The notes below the pieces were generated by a model. It ran no database searches. It had not been told where the DNA came from and was given only the letters and a program-made list of their open reading frames with translations. Made by a program: the position numbers and the translations under genes. A DNA stretch of 30,737 nucleotides from Candidatus Helarchaeota archaeon (GTDB lineage Archaea > Asgardarchaeota > Lokiarchaeia > Helarchaeales > HEL-GB-A), in the NCBI GenBank assembly GCA_013375405.1, contig JABXJU010000025.1:1-30737 (forward strand), read 5' to 3'. Shown here piece by piece: positions 4,018 through 21,884 of the stretch (its first letter is position 1; each line of letters begins with the position of its first letter).

Positions 4018-5330
4018 TTAATGAGTTGCGCATGATATACAGGGATCAAAGCTTCTCAAAATCATTTGCGCATGCAGCTTTACTTGTTCTAAATCCTGAA
4101 CTTCGTCATAATATCGTTTACTCTCTCGTGTAAGTATCTCGTTTATAGTGGGAATATTAATTTCAGTGGCAACTAAGAGTTTTACATCTTCGAGTTCCAA
4201 TTTCTTATTTACCTGATAATGATGGATCAAGGTGCCTCGAGGTGCTTCAACGACCCCTATACCCTGAGTGTTTTTGATAGAATTTAGTGGTGCAATCTCG
4301 ATTGGTTCAGTGAGTTTTGGATTTTCAAGTATAGCTAATCCGTCATATATATTTACCATGATTTCGATTAAGCGAAGATAGTTGGAGTATAGTAAATTTT
4401 TCCGCCATTTTACATCTAAATAATCAAAGTCGCGCTCTATTTCACCAACCCATAATCTTCAATTATATTATATCGTGATATCGGGCCCACAAACAGCCTA
4501 GAATCCTCAATCACAGAATATATTCCTGGTAATTGTCCAGGGACATCATCTCTCCAATTAAGATGTTTTGGATAATCTTCAACAGAAAAATCGGCTAGTA
4601 CTTTTTTATTTTGTTTTAATTGTAGAACCCCATTATATCGATCATATTTTCTTCGATTATGTAGAGCAAGAAAGGTATGATCTTTTAGGGATAATTCAGT
4701 TGGCGGCTCATCTTGAGCGAAAAGTTCTTTAAATCTCTCCAAAACTTCTTTTATATTACTTAATGCTTGTTGCAGATATTTGCGGCCTATTCCTATACTT
4801 TTTTTAGAAGGTGCATGGGATATCCCTCCGATAACTGGAGTTATAGGATGAGCAGATCTGCCGCCAAAAATCGTGATGAGTTCCTTTCCAAGCTTAATTA
4901 GTTCAAATATATTTTTAGTCAAATTTGGATCAAATCGGAGTAAATCCTCTAATGGTGTTGGATTGGATTGTCCTTTGAGCAGGACAAAGAGATCAGGAAG
5001 TGCTTGAAAAAAGAAATGTATTGAATGCGAATTGATCAGTTCCCCCGTCATCAAAAGGCGGCGCAGTAGAATGGACTGGTCAGATGGCTCAAGTTCAAAC
5101 ATTTTTTCAATTCCTTTACAACTGGCAATAGCATGGGATGCATAACATAGGCCACAGACCCGTGAGATAATTCTGGGGACATCAATTATTTTTTTATTAG
5201 AAAGGATATTCTCAAATCCCCTATAACCTTTAATATCAAAATATACTCCTGAAATCTCATTTTCTTGGAGCGTAAATCGCAAGGATCCATGGCCTTCAAC
5301 TCGTGTACACAGTGTAACTGTCTTTGGCAT
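4018..5330 (-). pseudogene. mvhA: F420-non-reducing [NiFe] hydrogenase large subunit MvhA, interrupted by a one-base frameshift
   Basis: The catalytic [NiFe] subunit of the MvhADG hydrogenase, which passes electrons from H2 to heterodisulfide reductase. The N-terminal part (5330 down to about 4445) carries the L1 motif RVEGHG and the L2 nickel ligands RVCGLCYASH (C59, C62). The C-terminal part (about 4458 down to 4018) ends with the L5 ligands DPCISCATH. The first frame stops at 4437-4439. The homologous continuation (ERDFDYLDVKW and so on) is open in the next frame, upstream of its first ATG at 4359, so this is a shift inside 4440-4458 and not a natural two-gene split. One extra G in the GGG run at 4449-4451 would restore one protein of about 437 aa. 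The start is ATG 5330, 7 nt after the mvhG stop. The protein ends exactly at the last ligand His, with no cleavable extension. Confidence 0.85.
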
Positions 5331-5337
5331 CTTTATA

Positions 5338-6087
5338 TTATCCTTTACCAATTTTAGGTTTTGCAAATCTAAAAAAAATCGCATTATATCTGCGTAAATT
5401 CCTGGAGAGTTTGAGAACACTCAGGAAATTGATTATATTAGCTGTAAAATCTTGTGCCACTGGTCCCATGCACCCCTCACAAGGTAGTCCCCTTTCAATA
5501 CATTGATGATCACAGCCATCTCGTACAACAGGCCCTAAACATAAGATTTTATCCTTCAAAAAACAGTGTATTCTCGGTTCTGCTTTAAATTTTGGCTGTA
5601 ATTGAATAATTTGTTCCTGATATTCTAATTCCGATTCGCCTCGAAGAGGACAGTTAGCACATAAATTTATTTCCGGGAGGCTTATTTCTTTATTTTCCAA
5701 TAATCTTATTAAATTGTTACCCAACAATTTTAGAGGTGGAGGACAGCCTGGTATGAATCCATCAATTTCTATGTAATCTGATATTGAAGCTGCCTTTTTT
5801 TTGGTTGAAAGGCTAAGAATTCCACCAAATGAAGCACAAGTTCCCAGTGCAATAACCTTCTTAGAATTTTTTCGAATTTCCTTGAGAATTTCAATTTCCC
5901 CCTCCTCTGAAACACAACCTTCTATCAATGCCATGTCAACTTCTTGAATTTTTGTCTGATCCATTAAAAAAGGCGAATAAACAACATCAAATCGTTCAAA
6001 AAATTCTGGAAGTATATCTAATGCTAAAAGTGTTCCAATACAACCACTACAACTAATTAACGAAGCAATTAAAACTTTATTCTTCAC
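5338..6087 (-). CDS. mvhG: F420-non-reducing [NiFe] hydrogenase small subunit MvhG
   Basis: 249 aa. This Fe-S electron-transfer subunit carries electrons from the NiFe site of MvhA toward MvhD/HdrA. Seen: an N-terminal proximal-cluster pair SCSGCIGTL (C13, C16), GTCASFGG, PGCPPP, CANCPLRGE, and a Cys-rich C-terminal half (GPVVRDGCDHQC, LPCEGCMGP), as in group 3c hydrogenase small subunits. The start is GTG at 6087 and overlaps the end of the HdrA fusion by 11 nt, so the two genes are translationally coupled. mvhA follows 7 nt after its stop. The cytoplasmic location is supported by the absence of a twin-arginine signal. Confidence 0.88.
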   Translation of the reverse strand: MKNKVLIASLISCSGCIGTLLALDILPEFFERFDVVYSPFLMDQTKIQEVDMALIEGCVSEEGEIEILKEIRKNSKKVIALGTCASFGGILSLSTKKKAASISDYIEIDGFIPGCPPPLKLLGNNLIRLLENKEISLPEINLCANCPLRGESELEYQEQIIQLQPKFKAEPRIHCFLKDKILCLGPVVRDGCDHQCIERGLPCEGCMGPVAQDFTANIINFLSVLKLSRNLRRYNAIFFRFAKPKIGKG

Positions 6088-8653
6088 TTTTAATCTCTTC
6101 TATTAAATTATAATAAAATTCATCCACTATTTCAGCAAATTTGGTGCCCTGATCCGCACTCAACGATTCCCGTATCAGGCGTTTCTTCGCAAAAGGACCG
6201 ATTACATCCTGAATCAACTTTATTTTTTTCCTAACTTTCTCAATTCCATCAATATACCGACATGAATCCCGCCCACACCCAATGACTATGACACCATCAA
6301 ATTCACATTCAAACGCATGGAGGATAAAATTGGTATCTACTCGCCCAGAACATGGCACCTCAATTATGAATGTATTTGGATTGTACTGTATTTTTTTCAG
6401 CCCCGCTTCATCCGCCGCCCCATATCCACATGAGTGGCAGCAAAATGCAAGAATCTTCGGTTTTGCTTTAGCTTTCGAAAGAACTTCAATAGTTTTTTGT
6501 ATTTTTTCAGTGCTATCAATATTCATTTCGAGTGATTTCGTGGGACATACACTCACACACATCCCACATCCCTTGCATTTAAACTTATCTATCATTACCT
6601 TATCGGATTCAAGTGTAAGGGCATTATATGGGCAGGAAATGACACATAATCCGCATAAACCACACCGCTCATTAACTATTTCAATACCACTGGATTCTGA
6701 GGTTAAATAATCTTGTGATAACAATGAAATAACTTTCAATGCCACATAATTCATTTGTGCGATTGTTGAATTATAGCCTGATGGTCCCATTGCTGTTCCT
6801 CCACCATATATACCAGATGCAAAAGTTTCCCCACTCATGAACCCGTTATCATCTAACGAAAAATCTAGTACTTTCCGTAAATCCTTCAAATCCTTATTCG
6901 GAACTATGTTAACGTTCAAAATTATTAAATCACTTGGGTATGAATGGGAAACAGTAACGTTATTTTCATCTTTCGTTTTAGTAATTATGATATTAGGCCC
7001 TCCCTTTATTTCTTTTATTTCAATTTCCTGAACATAATGAACCCTCCGATCGTTTGGATCGAGGAGCAGCTTGAATTTATCCTTTATTTTAGATAAATCA
7101 TAAAAAATATCCACCTTACAAAATGGTAGCTTCTCTCTAATAAAATCTAAATATTTCAACGCGACAAGATCGCTAAAATGTGCGGCATAATTTGGAGGAC
7201 CTACATTTTGAAATATGGAAATTGAAATCGGGGATTCATTATCAGATAATTTTAAAATTTCCCCCTCTGTAGGACCACCAGATGCTAATATCCGCTCGAA
7301 TTCTGGAGATGTAATGATGTCCTTTTGGGGATTATATTTGTACCGTTTTAATTCCCCCTTCATATCATAATATAAATCTGCTCCAATTGCCACTACTTTC
7401 GCCCCTACCTTGATCCGGATCTTTTCGGGATTCTGATTCAAGTCAATTGCATTATTGACACAAGCTTTTTCACAAATTCGGCATTGGTGACACGTCTCAA
7501 TATCCTCTCGATCAATTACTGCCACATAGGGGTATGCTTGAGTGAAGGGGATATAAATCAATTTCCGATTGCTGAGCCCAAACTCATACTTATTACTCTT
7601 CTCAATTGGACACAGATAAGTACATTGCTTACAACCAGTACATTTCTGTTCATCCACGAACCGTGGCTTTTTAATTAAATCAATTGTGAAATTCCCAACC
7701 TCACCAGATACTTTTACAATTTCTGTCTTTGATAAAATCTCTATATTTTCTTCTTGAACCAGCTCTCCGATTAGCTCCGAGAGAAAACAGATCGAACAAT
7801 CCCCCATCCCATAAATCCGGCTCCAAAGCGCTACCTTACCTCCTAGAGTAGGCGATTTCTCAATCAAATAAACTTTAATTCCCGCCCTTGCTAAATTTAG
7901 GGCAAGGGTCATTCCTGCAATTCCCCCACCTAGAATTGCACAGCTTTTTTCTACCTCTACCCGCTTAACTTGCACACTTTTCTGCAGTTTAACCCTTTCG
8001 ACCGCTACCTCAATCAAAATTTGTGCCTTTTTTAATGCCACCACCGGATCAGGTTGATGCACCCATGCACATTGTTCGCGAATATTCGCGATCTCAATAT
8101 TTGGATGATCAATCACATCCTCAAATATCCTATGAAATATATGTTTATGTGAATTTGGTGAGCAGGCAGCTATTACAATTTTATTCAAATAATTATCTTT
8201 ACACCAATCTGTGATTTCCTTCAAATTCTTAACTTGACATAAATTATCCAGTAATTTTACGGACACAACACCCGGGATTTTTTTCGTATAATTCTCTAGT
8301 GCTTGCACATCAATTGTAGAAGATATTTCCGTATAGCAGTCACAAATGACCACTCCCACCCGGTTGATTTCACTCTTCCGCGTATCTAGATGCTCGAGAT
8401 CTTCCCCCTCAAGAAGGCGTTTATTTATGTTAAATATTTGCATAATTTTTTTGCCTTCTTCGGTAAGGTAATATGCCTTCTTCTCCTTACCTAACAAATT
8501 TCCGAGCTTTTTTAAGTGAAAATTTAATTGCCCTGTCGTTTCGAGCCCAAGCTTTTCCATTAAATCCGAATAAGAGATATATCCTTCTTTCTCTACTATC
8601 TGCAATAATTTCTGCCGTAATGGATGTGCCAAAATCGTGTAAATATCAATCAT
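6077..8653 (-). CDS. hdrA: Winged-helix / HdrA / MvhD three-domain fusion
   Basis: About 858 aa. Numbering here counts from the outer ATG at 8662. Residues 1-80 resemble an ArsR-type winged helix (LAHPLRQKLLQIVE, TTGQLNFHLKKLG). Residues 100-240 correspond to the HdrA N-terminal domain. Residues 241-275 hold the FAD motif (AILGGGIAGMTLALN; GG at 274-275). Two ferredoxin-like cluster motifs follow at C341-C351 and C391-C401, and two more at C667-C677 and C696-C706. Residues 735-822 match MvhD (CCHSCGYGAAD, EVPCSGRVD, GCGRDSCRY). HdrA bifurcates electrons between ferredoxin and heterodisulfide, and MvhD is its link to the hydrogenase, so electron-transfer function follows from the family. A DNA-binding domain on the same chain is unusual and suggests redox-dependent autoregulation, which is inference. 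I prefer ATG 8653 because AAGGT lies 9 nt upstream. First gene of the operon with mvhG and mvhA; hdrBC are not nearby. Confidence 0.88.
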   Translation of the reverse strand: MIDIYTILAHPLRQKLLQIVEKEGYISYSDLMEKLGLETTGQLNFHLKKLGNLLGKEKKAYYLTEEGKKIMQIFNINKRLLEGEDLEHLDTRKSEINRVGVVICDCYTEISSTIDVQALENYTKKIPGVVSVKLLDNLCQVKNLKEITDWCKDNYLNKIVIAACSPNSHKHIFHRIFEDVIDHPNIEIANIREQCAWVHQPDPVVALKKAQILIEVAVERVKLQKSVQVKRVEVEKSCAILGGGIAGMTLALNLARAGIKVYLIEKSPTLGGKVALWSRIYGMGDCSICFLSELIGELVQEENIEILSKTEIVKVSGEVGNFTIDLIKKPRFVDEQKCTGCKQCTYLCPIEKSNKYEFGLSNRKLIYIPFTQAYPYVAVIDREDIETCHQCRICEKACVNNAIDLNQNPEKIRIKVGAKVVAIGADLYYDMKGELKRYKYNPQKDIITSPEFERILASGGPTEGEILKLSDNESPISISIFQNVGPPNYAAHFSDLVALKYLDFIREKLPFCKVDIFYDLSKIKDKFKLLLDPNDRRVHYVQEIEIKEIKGGPNIIITKTKDENNVTVSHSYPSDLIILNVNIVPNKDLKDLRKVLDFSLDDNGFMSGETFASGIYGGGTAMGPSGYNSTIAQMNYVALKVISLLSQDYLTSESSGIEIVNERCGLCGLCVISCPYNALTLESDKVMIDKFKCKGCGMCVSVCPTKSLEMNIDSTEKIQKTIEVLSKAKAKPKILAFCCHSCGYGAADEAGLKKIQYNPNTFIIEVPCSGRVDTNFILHAFECEFDGVIVIGCGRDSCRYIDGIEKVRKKIKLIQDVIGPFAKKRLIRESLSADQGTKFAEIVDEFYYNLIEEIKSEE

Positions 8654-8715
8654 TGTTATCATACCTTACTAGGTAAAATTTTCAGAAATAGAACTTTGAC
8701 AATTTTTTTATCAAA

Positions 8716-8758
8716 AAGTTGACAATTTTTTTCATCAAATCCTTTAAAACAAATTCTA
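8716..8758. promoter_or_regulatory. Two tandem TTGA-N11/12-TCAA palindromes, candidate operators of the HdrA operon
   Basis: Unit 1 is 8716-8734 (TTGA, 11 nt, TCAA). Unit 2 is 8739-8758 (TTGA, 12 nt, TCAA). Their interiors are nearly identical (CAATTTTTTT), and they start 23 bp apart, about two helical turns. They lie 63-105 bp upstream of the start of the winged-helix HdrA fusion, and read on the minus strand they give an A/T-rich stretch that could overlap its TATA element. Placement and symmetry fit binding by a dimeric winged-helix protein. The background is very AT-rich, so chance cannot be excluded. Confidence 0.45.
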
Positions 8759-8792
8759 ATGTGCTAATAATTTTCTTGTCATAAAAACATTT

Positions 8793-8811
8793 TTGAAAAA
8801 AATTTTGTCAA
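8793..8811. promoter_or_regulatory. Third TTGA-N11-TCAA palindrome, reverse orientation
   Basis: A 19-bp site with the same half-sites and the same 11-nt spacing as unit 1. Its interior is the reverse complement type (A-tract then TTTTG). It lies in the same divergent intergenic region, about 45 bp upstream of the TATA-like element of the gene at 8905. It could allow joint control of both divergent transcripts. Confidence 0.35.
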
Positions 8812-8858
8812 AATTAGGAAAAATCAATTTTTCAATTTTTTTAAATGGTTCCATTTTG

Positions 8859-8866
8859 TATAATAT
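8859..8866 (+). promoter_or_regulatory. TATA-like element of the gene at 8905
   Basis: TATAATAT lies 39-46 bp upstream of the ATG at 8905. That is a usual distance for an archaeal TATA box with a short leader. AGGTGA at 8891-8896 is the likely ribosome-binding site. Confidence 0.35.
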
Positions 8867-8904
8867 CTTAGATGAAAAAAAACTTGAAATAGGTGAAGAA
8901 AAAG

Positions 8905-9405
8905 ATGGCCGCAGAAGAATTAATTAATGTGGAAGTCAAGAAGAAGTATCTTGAATTATTTAAAGAAATTTGTGAAGAGAATGAATTAGATGCCGAGAAA
9001 GAATTAAAAGCTCGATTAGAACAAGCTTTAGTCGATTCATTTCATCATTATTCAAGTAAATGTATGCATCAGGACCGGGCTTTACGGTTCTTAAAGGGTG
9101 GCAAGAGCTGCAAGAGAACCCCTGGTTTTAACTTAGATCAAATTGAAAAATTATTATCAAAGATGGATTCAATCGATGAACAAATTGAGTGGTTACAAAA
9201 TTATCTCCAACAGTTACAACAAACCCGACATATCATGTATAATGGTCCCCGTGGACTTCCTACGACCATGACCAGAGAGGAGCAATATACTTCCTTGGCA
9301 CCTTATATGCAAGCCTATCCGCAAGCAATAGAAGAAATCCGTAAGAAAATTCGCGAACTCGAAGCTCACAAGATTGTTGAAGCTGAAGTAGTTCTTAAAA
9401 TGTAA
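8905..9405 (+). CDS. Coiled-coil protein with possible ribbon-helix-helix N-terminus, paralogue of the gene at 1673
   Basis: About 166 aa. The C-terminal half shares a conserved pattern with the protein at 1673: LLSKMDSIDEQIEWL, LQQLQQTRHIM, SLAPYMQAYPQAIEEI, KKIRELE. The N-terminal 40 residues (LINVEVKKKYLELFKEI, then a second acidic helix) look like a ribbon-helix-helix-type strand-helix-helix, so DNA binding is possible but unproven. ATG 8905 is chosen because AGGTGA (8891-8896) sits 8 nt before it; the frame also has a GTG at 8893. It is divergent from the winged-helix HdrA operon and shares its upstream region, which contains three palindromes. A run of T follows the stop. Function unknown. 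Confidence 0.7.
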   Translation: MAAEELINVEVKKKYLELFKEICEENELDAEKELKARLEQALVDSFHHYSSKCMHQDRALRFLKGGKSCKRTPGFNLDQIEKLLSKMDSIDEQIEWLQNYLQQLQQTRHIMYNGPRGLPTTMTREEQYTSLAPYMQAYPQAIEEIRKKIRELEAHKIVEAEVVLKM

Positions 9406-14589: not shown

Positions 14590-15822
14590 GTGACTGAAAT
14601 CAAGATCGCCCAAATAAGTTGTGGCACGGAATGGAGTGGCATCCAGCACAATTTGGAGCACGCAGCAAGCATTGTTGGGGCAAAATTGGTCTACCCTGAG
14701 GTTGATTTAGAGTTTATCCAGAAATCCTCCAATGATTTTGGACTAGAGGTGGATAGTGCAAATTTAAAATTGATGATTGCCCGGGCTATGGCGATCGCAC
14801 AAAAAATTTCGGATGCCGACGCCGCCTTCATCGTCACGTGCTTTCGATGCGCCGAAGGCGCCTTAGCGCGTCATGAAATCCGTCGCTATCTTCAACGGTA
14901 CAGTGATCTCCCAGTAATCATGTATGCCTTCACGGAGCATCCAAAAACGAGCGAATTAGTAATCCGGTTGGAAGCCTTAGCTACGGTCGTGAAACAGAAG
15001 GTACTGCTCGCAAGACAGAAGCAAGAAGGACTTACCCTCGGAATTGACTCCGGGTCTTCGACAACTAAGGCTGTTATCATGCAAGATAATGAAATTATCG
15101 GTATTGGATGGGAACCCACACATGAAATTGCGAATACTGCGAAAAAAGTCACCGAAGAGGCATTAGACGAAGCTAAAATGAAGATGAATCAGATCGAGGG
15201 TATTGGCGTGACGGGTTATGGCCGATTCATAATCGGAAAGCAATACAAAGCGGATCTAATACAAGAAGAGTTGACCGTGAATTCAAAAGGAGCTGTATTT
15301 CTAGCAGATCGGCAAAAAGGTGAGGCAACAGTTATCGATATTGGCGGGCTTGATAATAAAGTTATAACTCTCTTAAACGGCATTCCTGACGCATTCACAG
15401 TGGGAGGAATATGTGCCGGAAGTTCTGGACGGTTTCTCGAACTCGCTGCTGCTCGATTAGGAGTCCCTATTTTAGAATTCGGTGAGATCGCTTTACAAGG
15501 GGATCCAGAAAAAGCTATTCTTGACAGTTACTGTAGTATCTTCGGAATCCAAGATATGGTTTCTAAACTTGCTGAGGGCTTTGATAAAGCTGATGTCGCT
15601 GCAGCTGCCTGTCGTAGTGTTGCCGAACAAGTCTTCACACAACAATTACAGGAAATTGACTTGAGGGATCCAGTCATTGAAGTAGGAGGCACTTCCCTCG
15701 TGAAAGGATTGGTCAAACAGATGCAAGACGTATTAGGACGCGAAATTAATGTTCCGAAACACTCCCCGTTTGCAGGAGCAGTAGGTGCGGCTCTTTTAAC
15801 TTCGGGTTTAATTTCTAAGTGA
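14590..15822 (+). CDS. mmp15: Methanogenesis marker protein 15 (ASKHA ATPase of the MCR maturation set)
   Basis: 410 aa. The N-terminal 140 residues form a methanogen-specific domain with several Cys ([17 protein letters not shown]). From about residue 150 there is an acetate-kinase/Hsp70-type ATPase domain like the activators of 2-hydroxyacyl-CoA dehydratases: phosphate-1 loop [13 protein letters not shown], phosphate-2 [11 protein letters not shown], and the cluster-binding [13 protein letters not shown]. By analogy with those activators it could drive ATP-dependent low-potential electron transfer. Its family is confined to MCR-containing archaea. The start is GTG at 14590. It heads an operon with mmp17 (7-nt gap) and mmp7. 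I infer a role in MCR activation or F430-site reduction. Confidence 0.88.
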
Positions 15823-15829
15823 AAGAAGA

Positions 15830-16513
15830 ATGGCAGAAAAGATATTTGTTGAAAATTTAGATCAATCAGATCCTTTCAATTTTGGTATTATTTCTTATAA
15901 AGTGATTGCAGATCATGTTTTTACAGATTTAACCCTTGCCGGGGCTGTTCAATCCATTCGAATTTTAATTGATATTGAAAAACCGTTCTTTTATCTTGCA
16001 GGTGAATTGCGTCTAGTCGCATCACCGGTTCGTGTTTCTGATATTGCGTCCCTTAGTCTAGAGGAGGAGGGGATTCACGTTGTCATTGAAGATGAAAGTT
16101 ACGCCCCTGATCTGTTAAAGCTCCTCTGGACGAAATTTGGCCGGGAAAACATAACACAAATTGATCGTTGGAACCTCATCATTCCAAATCTTATTACTGC
16201 GGAAGAATTAGAACATATGATTGCTGTTAATCCGCGAGATCGCATCATGAATAAAATTCTCGATGCATTGAATCGCATCATCCCTGAAGGATTTCGGGTA
16301 CGGAAAAGAAGCCTCGAGAAAGGACACATAACTATAATAGCTTCTGAGAATCCTATTGAACCCGAATGGATTCAGAAAGCGGAAAATGCATTAAAAAATC
16401 CTCCTGTACAAATCCCAGCAGATTATCTTGAACAATTAAAGCAAACACCGAAAAAGATAGAGAAAAAAATCGTACCATGGAAAACACACGAATTCCAGGA
16501 GAGCGTTAAATGA
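15830..16513 (+). CDS. mmp17: Methanogenesis marker protein 17
   Basis: 227 aa, with an extended C-terminus compared with the roughly 190-aa family norm. The body alternates strands and helices (FNFGIISYKVIADHVFTDL, IRILIDIEKPFFYLAGELRL, RWNLIIPNLITAEELEHM). No catalytic motif is visible. Mmp17 has been found in the MCR activation complex of methanogens together with McrC, Mmp3, Mmp7 and A2, which is the basis for the role given here. Its stop overlaps the mmp7 start as ATGA at 16510-16513, so the two are translationally coupled and probably produced in matching amounts. Confidence 0.85.
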   Translation: MAEKIFVENLDQSDPFNFGIISYKVIADHVFTDLTLAGAVQSIRILIDIEKPFFYLAGELRLVASPVRVSDIASLSLEEEGIHVVIEDESYAPDLLKLLWTKFGRENITQIDRWNLIIPNLITAEELEHMIAVNPRDRIMNKILDALNRIIPEGFRVRKRSLEKGHITIIASENPIEPEWIQKAENALKNPPVQIPADYLEQLKQTPKKIEKKIVPWKTHEFQESVK

Positions 16514-17436
16514 GTGTGGAATCTTTTATATTCGAAGGTGGTGCACATAAGCACGAGCTTCTAGTAGAATTAATTGAAGATCTCGGCGGGTGGGTAATAC
16601 AAAAAAAAATCCTAGCACAAGAAAGCACCATCACCTTCACGATTCCGAATGCAGCTGATATTCCCCTCATCCGAGAAAAAGTATTGGAGTTACGCGGAAG
16701 TTTAAAGATTCAACCGCTATTAGGGACTGAAGTTGCAGTAGTATCTCCAACTATTGCCCGACATCATTTACCACATGTTTTATGTGATATTGCAGAATTT
16801 ATGCGTCGCATGGGTGCAAAAACCAATATGATTGGATTGGCGAGAGGGGTGGGACAGCGTACTGCCCAAATTTCGACCCGTGAGAAAAATATCATTGAAG
16901 AACACGACGCCGCCATTTTCGTTTTCGGCAATTTTGAACATTGTCTCAAGGAGCATAAGTGGAAACTCTATAAAGATATTACGGTCCCATTTGTAATCAC
17001 TGGTGGCCCAGAACTAGACTCAATCCCTTATGCAGAACATTATGTCAGTAAGATTGGACGCCTCCCATACCGCTTTAGACGGTTAGAAGAACTCGAAAAA
17101 CTTCGTGAAATTGGTGTAAATATAGCCCACGCCATTGAAAAGGTTCGCGAATCACTAGAACGTGACCCCCCTATTTTACCATCCTTCGCGGTTAAGGAAG
17201 AGATTGAGCGTCAGGTGCCAGAACTAGAAAGTGTATTTTCACCCACACCCATCGTGCCTCAAATTCGCGGACTTCGAATCAAATTACCATATTCTCAATT
17301 TAAAGAGAAGATAGCATACGTTAAGATTGGTAACTACCGTTTGGATGAAATTGCAGAAATTAAACAATCAAATTTCAGAGATTACATCTGTGTCAGACTG
17401 CTTTCAAAATCACAAATATCTTTAAAAAAGAATTGA
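16510..17436 (+). CDS. mmp7: Methanogenesis marker protein 7
   Basis: 308 aa, typical for the family. Recognisable segments are VVSPTIARHHLPHVLCDI, FMRRMGAKTNMIGLARGVGQR, AIFVFGNFEHCLKEHKW and PFVITGGPELDSIPYAEHY. The protein is cytoplasmic. In methanogens it belongs to the assembly that reductively activates methyl-coenzyme M reductase and holds unusual iron-sulfur clusters at subunit interfaces; single Cys residues at ARHHLPHVLC and NFEHC could contribute. It is the last gene of the mmp15-mmp17-mmp7 operon and starts inside the mmp17 stop (ATGA). It converges with the rubredoxin gene 12 nt downstream. Confidence 0.87.
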   Translation: MSVESFIFEGGAHKHELLVELIEDLGGWVIQKKILAQESTITFTIPNAADIPLIREKVLELRGSLKIQPLLGTEVAVVSPTIARHHLPHVLCDIAEFMRRMGAKTNMIGLARGVGQRTAQISTREKNIIEEHDAAIFVFGNFEHCLKEHKWKLYKDITVPFVITGGPELDSIPYAEHYVSKIGRLPYRFRRLEELEKLREIGVNIAHAIEKVRESLERDPPILPSFAVKEEIERQVPELESVFSPTPIVPQIRGLRIKLPYSQFKEKIAYVKIGNYRLDEIAEIKQSNFRDYICVRLLSKSQISLKKN

Positions 17437-17448
17437 TAAAATAAAACC

Positions 17449-17583
17449 TTATATTTTCACAAATTTGTCTTTAGATGCTCCACATTTGCGACATCTCCAG
17501 TAATCTGGGAGTTGGTCAAAAGGCGTACCTTCTTTTTCTTCATCGTAGACCCAGCCGCAAATTTTACATCTCCATCGCGCCAT
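17449..17583 (-). CDS. Rubredoxin, 44 aa
   Basis: The complete product has two CxxCG knuckles, CKICGWVYD and [11 protein letters not shown], with the typical aromatic-rich middle ([11 protein letters not shown]). These bind one Fe(Cys)4 centre that carries single electrons in the cytoplasm. At 44 residues it is slightly shorter than usual (about 52), but all four ligands are present. It lies 73 nt downstream of the 92-aa gene that follows atwA, on the same strand, and converges with mmp7. Its position between two MCR-activation transcripts suggests that it supplies or accepts electrons in that process; this is inference from location only. Confidence 0.9.
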
Positions 17584-17656
17584 ATCGCTTTCTCCAGTCT
17601 ATCTCTTTAATTATTGATTTATACTATTGAATTAAAATATTTAATTTTTAAGGCAA

Positions 17657-17935
17657 TTATTCCCCCATATCCCGTTGTTCAGACAGCGAATACCGTAATG
17701 CTATCTTTATTTTATAGCGCTTTTTCGCACGTTTAAAAGCTAGCTCTAATAAATGTTGTTTGCCTTCTTGCAAGAGGCGGGTAACTTTATTTTGAAATGA
17801 TTGAGTTTTGGTTTGAAGAATGCGCGATAGAGTTTCTTTAATTTCTTCAGGAGATAATTCAAGCCCTAGAATTTGTTGATCAAAAAGCCCATAATCTTTT
17901 GGTTCAAATTCAGAAAGAATAAGGGATTCTATCAT
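17657..17935 (-). CDS. 92-aa protein downstream of atwA, unknown function
   Basis: A short, charged, mostly helical protein. The N-terminus is acidic (MIESLILSEFEPKDYGLFDQ), and the C-terminal half is strongly basic (LAFKRAKKRYKIKIALRYS). There are no Cys residues and no transmembrane helix. I recognise no family. It begins 46 nt after the atwA stop on the same strand and is followed by the rubredoxin gene, so the three may form one transcript. Given its neighbours it could be a small MCR-maturation factor, but nothing in its sequence shows that. Confidence 0.5.
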   Translation of the reverse strand: MIESLILSEFEPKDYGLFDQQILGLELSPEEIKETLSRILQTKTQSFQNKVTRLLQEGKQHLLELAFKRAKKRYKIKIALRYSLSEQRDMGE

Positions 17936-17981
17936 CTCTATTATGAAATCATCGTTCAGAGCATTATCTCCCCAATAATAA

Positions 17982-19601
17982 TTATGAAGTCATTGCTTTC
18001 TCTTGTTCTCTCATAGTTTGAATAACTTGATCAGGTTCTCCAACAGTAACTATTTTTCCAGCTCTCATTAACGCTGCCCGATCACAGACATCAAGGATGA
18101 AATCAATATCATGGCTGACAATGAGGTAAGTTTGTTCAAGATCTTCTCGAGATTTGTGAATTGATCGAACTATTTCCAACCGCGTCAAGGGATCTGCAGT
18201 TCCTGTGGGTTCATCCAGGAGTACTATTTTCGGTTCTTTGATTAATACACGGGCGATTGCTACCCGATGCCGTTCTCCTTCGCTGACATCATCAGGAAAT
18301 TTGTAGAGAATACTATCAATTTCCTCACTCGTGAAATTTACAGCATAGAGTACATCATATGCTTTTTTAGTTTTGAGTTCTTCAGGCACCCGCGCCCGAA
18401 TAGCACCAGTTAAGTTCTCGAGGACTGTACGATGTGGGTAGAGACAGTATTCTTGGTGAAGGATTGACATATAACGGGTTGCACGCCCTCGTTCCCCTGG
18501 CCCCGGAACACTCATGTCAATCCAATCATCGCCAATACGGATCCAAATTTTACCCTTTGTAATGGGACGTAATCCAATAAGCATGTGAGACAATGATGTT
18601 TTTCCAGAGCCTGAAACTCCTACCAATCCAAAAATTTCTCCTTCATTAATTGTTAGAGTGATCCCATTCACGGCTTTGATGATTCCACGGTCGAAAGTAT
18701 AGTACCACTTGACACAGTCCTCCATTTTAATCAAAGGATGGTCAATTTGTTTACGTTCATAATGCGTTTCTTCTAATTGATCCATAAAGGTTTTTGCAAC
18801 GTCTTTCGGATCGCCTCGGGAAGTTATTACTCCTCGTTCGAGTAATATGGCTTCATCTGAAAGCTCAGCAACTGCGTGAGGCCAATGTGATGTAATGACA
18901 AGCGAGAGGTTTCCAGATTTCACCGTTTTTTTCATAATACTATGGACTGCTTCAGCGGTGATTGGATCTAGAGTCCCTGTCGGCTCATCAGCTAGAAATA
19001 ACAATGGATTTTTTGCAAGACTCATGGCGAATACGGCCCGCTGCTTCTCCCCTCCCGAGAGATCGCGTGCTAGATGGAGCGCACGATGCGTTAGTTTGAC
19101 TTGCGATAAGATCCTAAGAGCCCGACCCTGTTTCTTTTTTTCTGACACACCGGCTTTCGCAAGGACATTCGAGATATTTACTACGACTGGATATTCTCCA
19201 AATAAGGCAAAAGTCCGCTGCAACATGATGGAAGTACGGTTATAAATCCCATGAAAAATTTCTGAGGCCTTTTCTTCTTCCTCCCAATAGTCTACAATTT
19301 TTAACACCATTGGACCTTGACATTTTGGGCAGGGTGCCGTGGCTTTACTGGGATATTCAACCCAGTTGCACGCTTCACAATGCGCAATTCGATAGAAAAC
19401 TTTTCCATGAGTCGGCGCAAAGCCCTTTGTACCACGAAGGGTATGCATTAAAACTGATTTGCCAGAACCAGACTTGCCAAGAATCCCAAAACTATGTCCT
19501 TCTCGAACCACAAAGGAAATATCCTTGATCGAATAAATAGCTCGCTTGAACTCTTTGCTAATATTATCTACTTTTACAAAATAATTTTCCTCTGCTACCA
19601 T
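17982..19601 (-). CDS. atwA: MCR activation component A2 (AtwA), double-ABC ATPase with zinc ribbon
   Basis: 539 aa, the family's normal length. This soluble ATPase drives reductive activation of the Ni-F430 site of methyl-coenzyme M reductase. First ABC domain: Walker A GKSGSGKS (42-49), signature LSGGE (181-185), Walker B LFLADE (201-206). Second domain: Walker A GVSGSGKT (328-335), signature VSEGE (439-443), Walker B IVLLDE (459-464). Inside the first domain is the A2-specific zinc-ribbon insert (C75, C78, C91, C94), which separates it from ordinary transport ATPases. There is no membrane partner. It is divergent from mcrD with about 250 nt between the starts, and is followed by the 92-aa gene and rubredoxin. 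Confidence 0.92.
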   Translation of the reverse strand: MVAEENYFVKVDNISKEFKRAIYSIKDISFVVREGHSFGILGKSGSGKSVLMHTLRGTKGFAPTHGKVFYRIAHCEACNWVEYPSKATAPCPKCQGPMVLKIVDYWEEEEKASEIFHGIYNRTSIMLQRTFALFGEYPVVVNISNVLAKAGVSEKKKQGRALRILSQVKLTHRALHLARDLSGGEKQRAVFAMSLAKNPLLFLADEPTGTLDPITAEAVHSIMKKTVKSGNLSLVITSHWPHAVAELSDEAILLERGVITSRGDPKDVAKTFMDQLEETHYERKQIDHPLIKMEDCVKWYYTFDRGIIKAVNGITLTINEGEIFGLVGVSGSGKTSLSHMLIGLRPITKGKIWIRIGDDWIDMSVPGPGERGRATRYMSILHQEYCLYPHRTVLENLTGAIRARVPEELKTKKAYDVLYAVNFTSEEIDSILYKFPDDVSEGERHRVAIARVLIKEPKIVLLDEPTGTADPLTRLEIVRSIHKSREDLEQTYLIVSHDIDFILDVCDRAALMRAGKIVTVGEPDQVIQTMREQEKAMTS

Positions 19602-19851
19602 CTTTCTCTCGTCTCTCTAATTTTTTTAATCGCAAATATGATTATCATCAACGATTAGTAATTACCACGGATTTATTATTTAAATTCTCCGATTTAGAAA
19701 GGATTTAATAGATAGTTTGGTTAGAGATTAATAAGAGAGAAAAAAGAGAAAAGTTAAATTCGCTAATTTGACCTTCTATATGTTAAATAGAAGAGTATGA
19801 CTCGTATTAAAATGATTAAATGTAATTTAGAACAAGGTTGGTCGGGTTTCC

Positions 19852-20259
19852 ATGTCAGAATTGAATGAAAATGATGTCTCCTACAGCCCTGAAGTTGTCA
19901 TATTTCCTAATCGATTTTGTTCAGATGAAACAGTTGCAGACTTTTTAAATGCCTTACGCCAAATTGATGGCATTACGAAGGTAATTATGCATGGTCCCAG
20001 AACATATGATCTCATAAAACGTTGTATTAAAGTTGGAGATTGCCAAGAAATCATTTTGGATATTCAAGTGGGGAAATTCTATATTGAAATTGAAACCCCA
20101 CAGATTATTATACCCATTAGGGAGGCTGCGGATAATATTTTTGAATTTGGGTATAGAATAGGCGCTGGACGTTTTACAAAGTATCAAAAAACCACAATGG
20201 ACCATGTCCGAGGTTATAGTTTGGTGTTTAGGAAGGATATTCTAGAGCGAGAAGAATGA
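19852..20259 (+). CDS. mcrD: Methyl-coenzyme M reductase operon protein D
   Basis: 135 aa. The pattern matches McrD: PEVVIFPNRFCSDETVADFL at the start, a DGITKVIMHGPR segment, DIQVGKFYIEIET, and a terminal G-x-F-T-K-Y-x-KTTMDHVRGY. Family role: an accessory protein that binds the MCR complex during assembly and activation; it is not a subunit of the mature enzyme. The start is ATG 19852. The in-frame sequence upstream soon meets a stop. Its last codons overlap the mcrC start by 4 nt (20256-20259), so the two are coupled. It is normally located with mcrBGA, but here those are absent. Confidence 0.9.
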   Translation: MSELNENDVSYSPEVVIFPNRFCSDETVADFLNALRQIDGITKVIMHGPRTYDLIKRCIKVGDCQEIILDIQVGKFYIEIETPQIIIPIREAADNIFEFGYRIGAGRFTKYQKTTMDHVRGYSLVFRKDILEREE

Positions 20260-20963
20260 CTCAGGATAGAAAAGAAGGTCAAAGGCGTCATCAACCTAAT
20301 CAGGACCGCCCACCTGGTCTGTACGGTCCGGGGTGTAAGAGAAACTCCTTTAACTCAAAGCTTGGACGACAGACACAAATAATCGACTGCAGGGAAACTG
20401 CAGGGTTAGGTTTAGGGGGGGGATTAGCTCAACGTGCAACATTTTCAGAAGCTGCAGAACCAGATATTATTATCTTAAGTATGGGACCGTCTCCACGGCA
20501 CATTACTAAACCGGTTTGTGAAATTACATATGGCTTACGCGAAGCTGGCTTGCAAGTCAGTGTCCTCATCATGCGCGCAGGAATTGGCCCCACAGAAGAT
20601 ATGCCGGGAGGGGCAATGCCAGGTGCGGGTGTTTCTGGAATTACGCCTGAAGAAGAAGACCAAATTGCACGCCATCGCATGGCAATTATCCATTTAGGAA
20701 ATGTCCCTGGGCACTTCGTATATAAAGCCCGGCGTTTTTTAAAAAATGTGGAGATCCCCGCGATCATTATATGTCAAGCTCCCGTTGGGTTTGAAGATTT
20801 TGCCAAAGTCGGTATCCCAACTCGTCCCACTCAACCACAAAAAGCCACCACGAAGGGATACATCATTGATATCGTTACAGGTGTCATACGGGGACAGACT
20901 GTGCCCCAATTCCAAGTGGAAGAAATCATAGAGAAAGTGAAATATTGGTTAAATCGGCTTTAA
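20256..20963 (+). CDS. mcrC: Methyl-coenzyme M reductase operon protein C
   Basis: 235 aa. The conserved core begins near residue 37: GRQTQIIDCRETAGLGLGG, HITKPVCEITYGLREAG, MAIIHLGNVPGHFVYKAR, IIICQAPVGFEDFAKVGI, TGVIRGQTVPQF. McrC is the central scaffold of the MCR activation complex, with Cys residues such as those in DCRE and KPVCEI proposed as ligands or contacts. The first 36 residues are an extra, Gln/Arg/Pro-rich extension with PPGLYGPGCKRN, apparently not part of the common core. The start overlaps mcrD by 4 nt. The stop TAA abuts the ATG of the Fe-S protein gene with no gap. Confidence 0.93.
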   Translation: MTQDRKEGQRRHQPNQDRPPGLYGPGCKRNSFNSKLGRQTQIIDCRETAGLGLGGGLAQRATFSEAAEPDIIILSMGPSPRHITKPVCEITYGLREAGLQVSVLIMRAGIGPTEDMPGGAMPGAGVSGITPEEEDQIARHRMAIIHLGNVPGHFVYKARRFLKNVEIPAIIICQAPVGFEDFAKVGIPTRPTQPQKATTKGYIIDIVTGVIRGQTVPQFQVEEIIEKVKYWLNRL

Positions 20964-21884
20964 ATGCAAGGAGTTGATTTTATAAAAAGCGCTAAAGGTC
21001 ATTTAAAACAAAACTTTATCGATATGAGTAAATTTCAGATGGGAAGAGCCCGTCTTGAGAAAGGTCTAATCAAAGAACACATGAGACATGTTGAACGAAC
21101 CCTTACTGGTTTAAATCAAGCCAGAAAATGGAAAAAACTTAATCAAAAAATTGATTCACCTAAAGTCCCTATAAACCAACAGTTTTGGGATGATCTAATC
21201 ACCTTTACCAAGTCTATTGGTCTTGATTTAATTGGCTTTACTGAGGTTGATGAATATTTTATTTTTGAAGAAGAAATGACTGGTTATCGAGTAAAGAATA
21301 ATGTTCTTGATAATGCAATTGTTTTAGGAATGGAAATGAAAAAAGAGGCAATCGATCAAGCCCCAGAACCCCCTGCAGGAAATGAAGCTATGCGTATCTA
21401 TGCCGAACTTGGATTTGCAACGATTAAGTTAGCTGCTTACCTCCGAGAACGGGGCTACCAAGCACAAGCTTTTCATCCCTTCGGGGGCCCAGTGCTGTAC
21501 CCCCCAATGGCCCAGAAGGCAGGACTAGGTGAAATTGGTTATAGTGGCGTACTCATATCAAAGGAGTTTGGCCCTCGACAGCGATTATCGATGATTGCAA
21601 CTGATGCCGATCCTTTACCTCCGACAAAGAATACCCAGTTCGGTATAAGAGAATATTGTGAAACTTGTGGTAAATGTATAAAAAACTGCCCAACCCAGGC
21701 AATTCTACCGGGTAATCAAAAGCTTAAATCCCCTGATGGTAAATATCTTCAAAATATCGATGGTGATAAATGTTTCCCTCAGTTCTTTAAGACGCATGGG
21801 TGTAGTATTTGCCTTAAAGTCTGTCCCTTTTCAGAATTAGGCTACGAAAAAGTAATGGCGAAAGCTTCTATTAAAGTGAAGTAA
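20964..21884 (+). CDS. Two-[4Fe-4S] protein of the QueG / reductive-dehalogenase superfamily, linked to mcrC
   Basis: 306 aa. The C-terminal third has a double-cluster ferredoxin: CETCGKCIKNCPTQAI and a second set in GDKCFPQF with CSICLKVCPF. Before it is the superfamily core (HPFGGPVLYPPMAQKAGLGE, then IGYSGVLISKEFGPRQRLS). The first 55 residues are basic and helical. There is no Tat signal, so unlike respiratory dehalogenases it is cytoplasmic. In QueG this core binds cobalamin; whether it does so here is unclear. Its ATG directly follows the mcrC TAA, a spacing that implies tight coexpression. I infer a low-potential electron donor or corrinoid-type reductase acting in MCR maturation. Calling it epoxyqueuosine reductase would be unsafe. 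Confidence 0.7.
   Translation: MQGVDFIKSAKGHLKQNFIDMSKFQMGRARLEKGLIKEHMRHVERTLTGLNQARKWKKLNQKIDSPKVPINQQFWDDLITFTKSIGLDLIGFTEVDEYFIFEEEMTGYRVKNNVLDNAIVLGMEMKKEAIDQAPEPPAGNEAMRIYAELGFATIKLAAYLRERGYQAQAFHPFGGPVLYPPMAQKAGLGEIGYSGVLISKEFGPRQRLSMIATDADPLPPTKNTQFGIREYCETCGKCIKNCPTQAILPGNQKLKSPDGKYLQNIDGDKCFPQFFKTHGCSICLKVCPFSELGYEKVMAKASIKVK

Follow-up and report, generated by a model that had tools for sequence, protein, structure and literature searches.

Contig JABXJU010000025.1 of a Candidatus Helarchaeota archaeon (GenBank assembly GCA_013375405.1; the stretch of 30,737 nucleotides that was analysed as a whole is called the window here) raises the question of what a winged helix-turn-helix (wHTH) domain does at the N terminus of an HdrA. 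A single open reading frame (ORF) on the minus strand (6077..8662, 861 aa) encodes the winged helix, HdrA and an MvhD domain in one chain, as the initial annotation had read it. The end of the gene had been placed at 8653, which is the second ATG, whereas the full ORF reaches 8662; counted from 8653, as in database entry P0001, the protein is 858 aa long. The annotation had further proposed a DNA-binding redox regulator. The wHTH-HdrA-MvhD protein is, on balance, probably a hydrogen-responsive transcription regulator of Asgard archaea. The strongest facts are an invariant recognition helix, the selective loss of one HdrA cluster and two marks of regulatory hydrogenases in the family of the partner hydrogenase. 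These support the idea of a regulator, while the Cys-signature argument first given for it falls. The domain order, its conservation, the apparent cluster loss, the operon of the window and the regulatory-hydrogenase marks of the family are read from the sequences themselves.

Profile matches and a structure model delimit the parts of the chain, and all coordinates of this gene and of its partner genes refer to the minus strand. The wHTH domain covers residues 4-84 (8411..8653). The HdrA part, residues 101-715 (6518..8362), comprises the N-terminal iron-sulphur domain, the flavin adenine dinucleotide (FAD) domain and the inserted and C-terminal ferredoxin domains. The MvhD/FlpD domain, residues 734-852 (6107..6463), is recognized by PF02662 (residues 737-852) and by solved MvhD chains. 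The NCBIfam model of HdrA2 (NF040770) spans residues 101-858 with 599.7 bits, below its cut-off of 1100, and two other NCBIfam HdrA models score 439.0 and 394.6 bits, below cut-offs of 1300 and 1400. Five solved HdrA chains match inside residues 98-728, and the full-chain AlphaFold model (43 sequences, mean predicted local distance difference test (pLDDT) 72, predicted template-modelling score 0.55) aligns with HdrA of 8RVU and 5ODC. The FAD Rossmann motif (GGGIAG) and four ferredoxin-type Cys sets are present, as the initial annotation had noticed.

The chain is not a one-off fusion, an explanation that was rejected: it belongs to a large family, and a search with it returned 2113 proteins (E at most 1e-10). 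The best 120 of these, the window's own chain included, form the sample used throughout for HdrA. The domain order seen in the window recurs in these relatives, as the MvhD domain is covered in 119 of the 120 rows, the exception being P0112, a partial entry with 28% of the domain. The named sources among the rows listed are Asgard archaea (Helarchaeota, Lokiarchaeota, Thorarchaeota, Odinarchaeota, Hodarchaeota, Hermodarchaeota and 'Promethearchaeota'). A scan of genome contigs with the single protein returned two bacterial loci that match only in the ferredoxin region; viral contigs scanned with the family alignment gave no match, and a plasmid scan gave three distant records only. The HdrA-MvhD fusion in itself is already known. 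Type Ia HdrA-MvhD fusions, or HdrA2 (NF040770; PMC12054007), likewise carry MvhD at the C terminus of HdrA, and the words 'winged', 'helix' and 'Asgard' do not occur in the main text of PMC12054007. Multiple HdrA copies and HdrA-MvhD fusions are described in Thor- and Lokiarchaeota (PMC11237513), and selenocysteine-containing HdrA and hydrogenases in Asgard archaea (PMC11227280).

What sets the chain apart is thus its N terminus, which the initial annotation had taken for a winged helix over about 80 residues. Both profile and model agree with this. PF24038 (DUF7347) matches residues 6-75 with 40.9 bits (cut-off 27.6), while HTH_24 (PF13412) stays just under its cut-off in the window domain (21.4 vs 21.9 bits), passes it in P0242, P0100 and P0060, and stays under it in P0084. 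Over residues 14-84 the full-chain model exhibits the order helix-strand-helix-helix-strand-strand-helix (helix 14-26, strand 28-30, helices 31-38 and 43-56, strands 57-60 and 63-66, helix 68-84). Averaged over blocks of ten residues, pLDDT is 74-87 across residues 11-80 and 57 for 81-90. The third helix, residues 43-56 (8495..8536, core TGQLNFHLKK), is the recognition helix: T43, G44, L46, N47, F48 and H49 are invariant in 120/120 rows, and K51 and K52 are found in 97% and 96%, respectively. A search of structures with the full chain listed no DNA-binding family among its matches, the FAD domain having filled the list, and a search with the wHTH alone returned four proteins, seemingly fragments of the same family.

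Could this domain be a vestigial or accidental fusion without function, or an artefact of start-site prediction? Seven of the 120 entries do lack part of residues 16-78, perhaps as a result of later predicted starts. However, the other 113 are ungapped over these residues and the seven still hold the recognition helix, so that an internal start giving HdrA without the domain in all relatives, which the initial annotation had named as a possible refutation, did not turn up. The DUF7347 label is found on 115 rows, and the five rows that do not have it (P0095, P0098, P0103, P0117 and P0118) start later and still contain the recognition helix. Within the chain, the winged helix is also one of the most conserved parts: its mean top-residue frequency is 0.863, as compared to 0.809 for the HdrA N domain, 0.840 for the inserted and 0.833 for the C-terminal ferredoxin domain, 0.794 for MvhD and 0.738 for the second half of the FAD domain. 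The first segment of the FAD domain (0.879) is the only large part above it. Ranked by entropy, lowest first, the 12-residue segments that begin at residues 43 and 44 take places 21 and 62 of 846. The winged helix appears to be under strong constraint, close to that on the cofactor motifs, which argues against a relic, and a functionless domain is highly improbable. Conservation alone would nevertheless be no proof of DNA binding.

The clusters of HdrA bring the second line of evidence, in a place other than that first suspected. The initial annotation had described the Cys-rich signature as missing, since the first motif reads CDCY where HdrA usually has CHCG. In CDCY both Cys of CHCG are still present, and C107, C109, C142 and C167 of the N-terminal iron-sulphur domain are Cys in 120/120 rows, as is C292, the equivalent of Cys197. 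Each of the 16 ferredoxin Cys of the inserted and C-terminal domains is present in at least 119 rows. The actual departure, which that reading overlooked, lies in the thioredoxin-reductase domain, where the canonical Cys positions of residues 486-498 (7169..7207) are occupied by N, A, S and D. These four positions hold Cys in 36, 0, 3 and 0 rows of the sample; all four are lost in 82 rows, one is left in 37 and two in a single row, and no row has more. Canonical HdrA was represented by six sequences, the five solved chains (5ODC, 8RVU, 8RVV, 9SFI and 7BKB) and the HdrA of Ilyobacter (661 aa, encoded beside an hdrB-family gene and a ferredoxin-type gene), which was added to the 120-sequence alignment. 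The lost positions are Ilyobacter C389, C403, C407 and C408, by count C386, C399, C403 and C404 in 5ODC, and profile alignment to the five solved chains shows the same. Four Cys in the second half of this domain are what we take to be [4Fe-4S] ligands, and the conservation of the four lost Cys in the six canonical HdrA suggests that they are these ligands. Ilyobacter C543 and C577 are likewise non-Cys in the family; as C543 is Cys in just two of the five solved chains, it was not counted as a ligand.

According to PMC9012536, the cluster of the thioredoxin-reductase domain is the exit of HdrA to HdrBC, and Cys197 links two HdrA copies; PMC12054007 describes the same domain layout, with six clusters altogether. 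The Asgard family would have lost one cluster of the six selectively: the ferredoxin branch and the dimer link appear to be retained and the HdrBC branch to be cut. The chain resembles the HdrA of HdrABC in its FAD domain, N-terminal cluster Cys, Cys197 equivalent (a letter printed as X in 9SFI) and both ferredoxin domains, but it has gained a winged helix along with this loss, and no hdrB is found in its operon. A Pfam scan of 30 window proteins, out of 44 window ORFs of at least 80 aa, detected no HdrB-type (CCG) domain; HdrC would show generic ferredoxin domains only, such as are seen also in the distant gene at 20964-21884. To note, residue 515, in the second half of the FAD domain, is Cys in 113 of the 120 rows and Ile in Ilyobacter HdrA; it is a possible redox switch or replacement ligand.

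The third line of evidence comes from the hydrogenase encoded in the same three-gene operon. The gene of the MvhG-like small subunit (5338..6087, 13 Cys) overlaps the hdrA end by 11 bases; seven bases beyond its stop stands the ATG of the large subunit (5330). The large subunit is split into an N-terminal piece of 297 aa with the L1 motif RVCGLCYASH (4437..5330) and, after a frame break, a C-terminal piece (4018..4359 from its first ATG) ending with DPCISCATH and the stop; both [NiFe] ligand motifs are present. P0122 and other relatives have a full-length large subunit, and the break is either a sequencing error or real decay. Selenocysteine was considered as the cause of the split and dropped, because the two pieces lie in different frames and the C-terminal motif has Cys.

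A search with the N-terminal piece returned 131 proteins, of which the best 120 were listed; three of these, P0238-P0240, are distant (29-33% identity) and served as outgroup, leaving 117 rows as the base of the family counts. The L1 His position is occupied by Gln in 112 of the 117 and by His in the other five (the window's own P0121, P0122, P0124, P0138 and P0195). In 111 rows the chain ends at the L2 motif, P0234 (Helarchaeota) is 11 residues longer, and five rows of 206-337 aa, the window N piece included, have no L2 motif; a C-terminal extension is thus absent from 111 of the 112 rows with a readable L2 motif. Gln at L1 is characteristic of regulatory hydrogenases, all other [NiFe] hydrogenases having His (PMC5665086), and the hydrogen-sensing hydrogenases of groups 2b and 2d are devoid of the C-terminal extension (PMC7294309). 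HoxC of C. necator has Gln and no tail. His is found in HoxG and HoxH, with tails of 15 and 24 residues, respectively, and also in the three outgroup rows, with tails of 7, 10 and 26.

These marks do not seem to reflect common descent with the bacterial sensors. In a FastTree analysis of 120 large-subunit sequences (113 of the 117 Asgard rows, namely those of at least 390 aa plus the window N piece, and seven others), the 113 Asgard rows form one group (support 0.927). Parsimony makes Gln ancestral for them, with six changes altogether and HoxC separate, and the window's His therefore looks like a reversal. Three family members yield far higher Blast scores to HoxH-type sequences than to HoxC. 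The best NCBIfam models are ShyA or VhuA for four members and a NiFeSe model for HoxC; the VhuA model (Mvh/Vhu hydrogenases, group 3c) gives 116.5 bits for the window N piece and 140.7-169.0 for four full relatives, all below its cut-off of 800. As the family scores nearer to group 3 enzymes (HoxH, ShyA, VhuA) than to HoxC, its likeness to the sensors in Gln and in the missing extension looks convergent. HoxBC of C. necator (group 2b, L003:16923-19433) compares only in part. It shares the two marks, and the 12 conserved Cys that HoxB devotes to three [4Fe-4S] clusters (PMC5665086) may be set beside the 13 Cys of the window small subunit. However, it signals through a histidine kinase (PMC5665086), while the Asgard family scores nearer group 3 and stands beside a winged-helix HdrA, and the window copy keeps His.

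A rival reading is an enzyme of energy metabolism: a hydrogenase-HdrA complex exchanging electrons between hydrogen and ferredoxin, for instance in ferredoxin-driven hydrogen release in syntrophy, with the winged helix as a docking or dimer module. Winged helices can indeed mediate protein-protein contacts, both ligand motifs are in place and all clusters of the ferredoxin path are kept. A gene cluster of HydB/Nqo4-like, Oxidored_q6 and disulfide reductase/FlpD genes, with predicted transmembrane motifs, was reported from both Helarchaeota bins as a possible energy-transferring complex, and most Helarchaeota hydrogenases were assigned to group 3c (PMC6478937). Having the same three kinds of genes, it is probably the same type of locus, likened here by description. 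It was presented as a possible membrane energy complex, and the available text makes no mention of a winged helix, of the cluster loss or of regulatory-hydrogenase marks. In a simple Kyte-Doolittle check (usual threshold 1.6), the maxima are 1.54 for HdrA, on the FAD Rossmann motif, 1.00 and 0.95 for the large-subunit pieces and 2.18 for the small subunit, where residues 5-23 span the first cluster-Cys pair. A transmembrane complex is doubted from this check, as the HdrA and small-subunit peaks fall on cofactor motifs and form no clear anchor; the small-subunit stretch passes the usual threshold, so a membrane role is doubtful rather than excluded. With the invariant recognition-helix residues and the regulatory marks of the partner family also standing against it, a pure energy enzyme is unlikely, although it is the likeliest of the alternatives.

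The initial annotation had supposed that the protein could bind the promoter of its own hydrogenase operon. The hdrA gene is bordered by a divergent, A+T-rich intergenic region of 230 bases (8663..8892), which holds three exact copies of TTGACAAWWTTTTT (8696-8709 and 8719-8732 on the plus strand, 8798-8811 on the minus strand) and none elsewhere in the window, where 0.07 are expected. This pattern was picked after the repeats had been seen; with two mismatches, 12 matches are found vs 8.3 expected, and when the intergenic region is shuffled by itself, direct repeats of at least 14 bases turn up with P = 0.01 and a best 8-mer count as high with P = 0.18. The region is a weak candidate for an operator. 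A sigma-70 promoter scan was uninformative, being unsuited to archaea. On the other side of the region, a gene of the plus strand (8893-9405) encodes a protein of 170 aa with no Pfam match over cut-off and none listed in NCBIfam.

The same sites bear on a second alternative, a trigger enzyme that would be an active hydrogen/ferredoxin oxidoreductase and at the same time repress or activate its own operon. PutA is known as such an enzyme and regulator in one. All the evidence for the regulator would equally serve this reading, which both active-site motifs and the three TTGACAAWWTTTTT sites would favor; yet the post hoc choice of the pattern and the modest shuffle statistics count against it, and we regard it as quite unlikely. 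HdrR of Methanosarcina barkeri is a winged-helix regulator that acts on the hdrBCA operon, but it is a separate transcription factor, unfused to HdrA (PMC11218639).

Linkage of the fusion gene with the hydrogenase can be followed in relatives indirectly. The exact size of the longest contig is common to an HdrA row and a large-subunit row for 26 of the 120 HdrA rows, the window included, against a mean of 0.53 expected under small random shifts and a maximum of 4 in 2000 trials. In Loki_b32, tags CEE43_03470 (HdrA) and CEE43_03460 (large subunit) are close together. The other 94 HdrA rows found no match; as each search listed no more than its 120 best hits, this is no evidence of absence.

How such a regulator would work can be sketched from these parts, the electron path, the dimer, DNA binding, the sign of regulation and the target promoters all being predicted. 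The MvhAG-like [NiFe] hydrogenase would pass electrons from hydrogen into the MvhD domain, and these would reach the HdrA FAD via the C-terminal ferredoxin clusters. With the HdrBC exit cluster lost, bifurcation by the known route would be impossible and the electrons would have no known high-potential acceptor, so that the reduction state of the FAD and of the remaining clusters may report hydrogen, or the hydrogen/ferredoxin balance. This state would alter DNA binding by the winged helices, of which each HdrA dimer would carry two at its N termini.

Several observations weigh against this scheme. DNA binding and the hydrogen response are both predictions, and operon linkage in relatives is weakly supported, by the proxy of shared longest contigs and a single pair of locus tags. 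As all clusters on the ferredoxin side are intact, electrons might still pass to ferredoxin, and the protein might act as an enzyme. The winged helix has a near-neutral isoelectric point (7.9 in the window, median 8.1 in 109 rows, range 5.7-9.7), its fold matches are weak when the domain is searched alone, and a domain-only model is poor in the wing. The large subunit of the window keeps the L1 His and is split by the frame break (4018-5330). HoxC Ile62 and Phe110 are presumably residues of a narrow gas channel; the former position is Leu in 109 of the 113 Asgard rows and the latter Gln in 104 and His in 9, the other seven large subunits having Leu or Phe at position 110. Ile62 is itself unspecific, HoxH and three other aligned non-sensor sequences also having Ile. 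As for the marks, the L1 Gln 'seems not to be involved in H2 sensing' (PMC5665086), and the extension is also missing in groups 4c, 4e and 4g (PMC7294309). Finally, PMC11291895 reads group 3c hydrogenase and HdrABC in wetland Asgard archaea as bifurcating, in a family that may or may not be the present one.

Elsewhere in the window, 14590-21884 encodes methanogenesis-marker proteins 15, 17 and 7, McrC and component A2 on the minus strand, all over cut-offs, together with a McrD match under cut-off; it is a methyl/alkyl-coenzyme M reductase activation locus on an Asgard-like contig, in keeping with an organism like Helarchaeota. Adjoining the McrC gene, a plus-strand gene (20964-21884) encodes a 4Fe-4S double-cluster protein with sub-cut-off similarity to reductive dehalogenase/QueG. 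No transfer RNA was found in the window.

A winged helix on HdrA or a hydrogen sensor is not mentioned in the available portions of PMC6478937, PMC11237513, PMC11227280 and PMC11291895. A literature search combining HdrA, winged helix and Asgard found nothing, and no published account of Asgard hydrogen sensing was found among the best literature matches, supplements and most subscription papers being outside the scope of both. More tentatively than for the regulator itself, the comparison raises the possibility that Asgard archaea evolved a hydrogen sensor of their own, independently of the bacterial regulatory hydrogenases, from a group-3-like [NiFe] hydrogenase that would have converged on the sensor signature. 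Electron transfer through an exit-less HdrA would wire it directly to DNA-binding domains, and promoters would read out hydrogen with no kinase between.

No closer relatives of eukaryotes are known than Asgard archaea, and syntrophy models of how eukaryotes arose give a central place to hydrogen exchange with partners. If the proposed regulator is real, the hydrogenase, the exit-less HdrA and the winged helix would together form a direct-wired switch for hydrogen or redox state, and not every mvh-hdr cluster of Asgard archaea should then be taken for an electron-bifurcating enzyme of energy metabolism.

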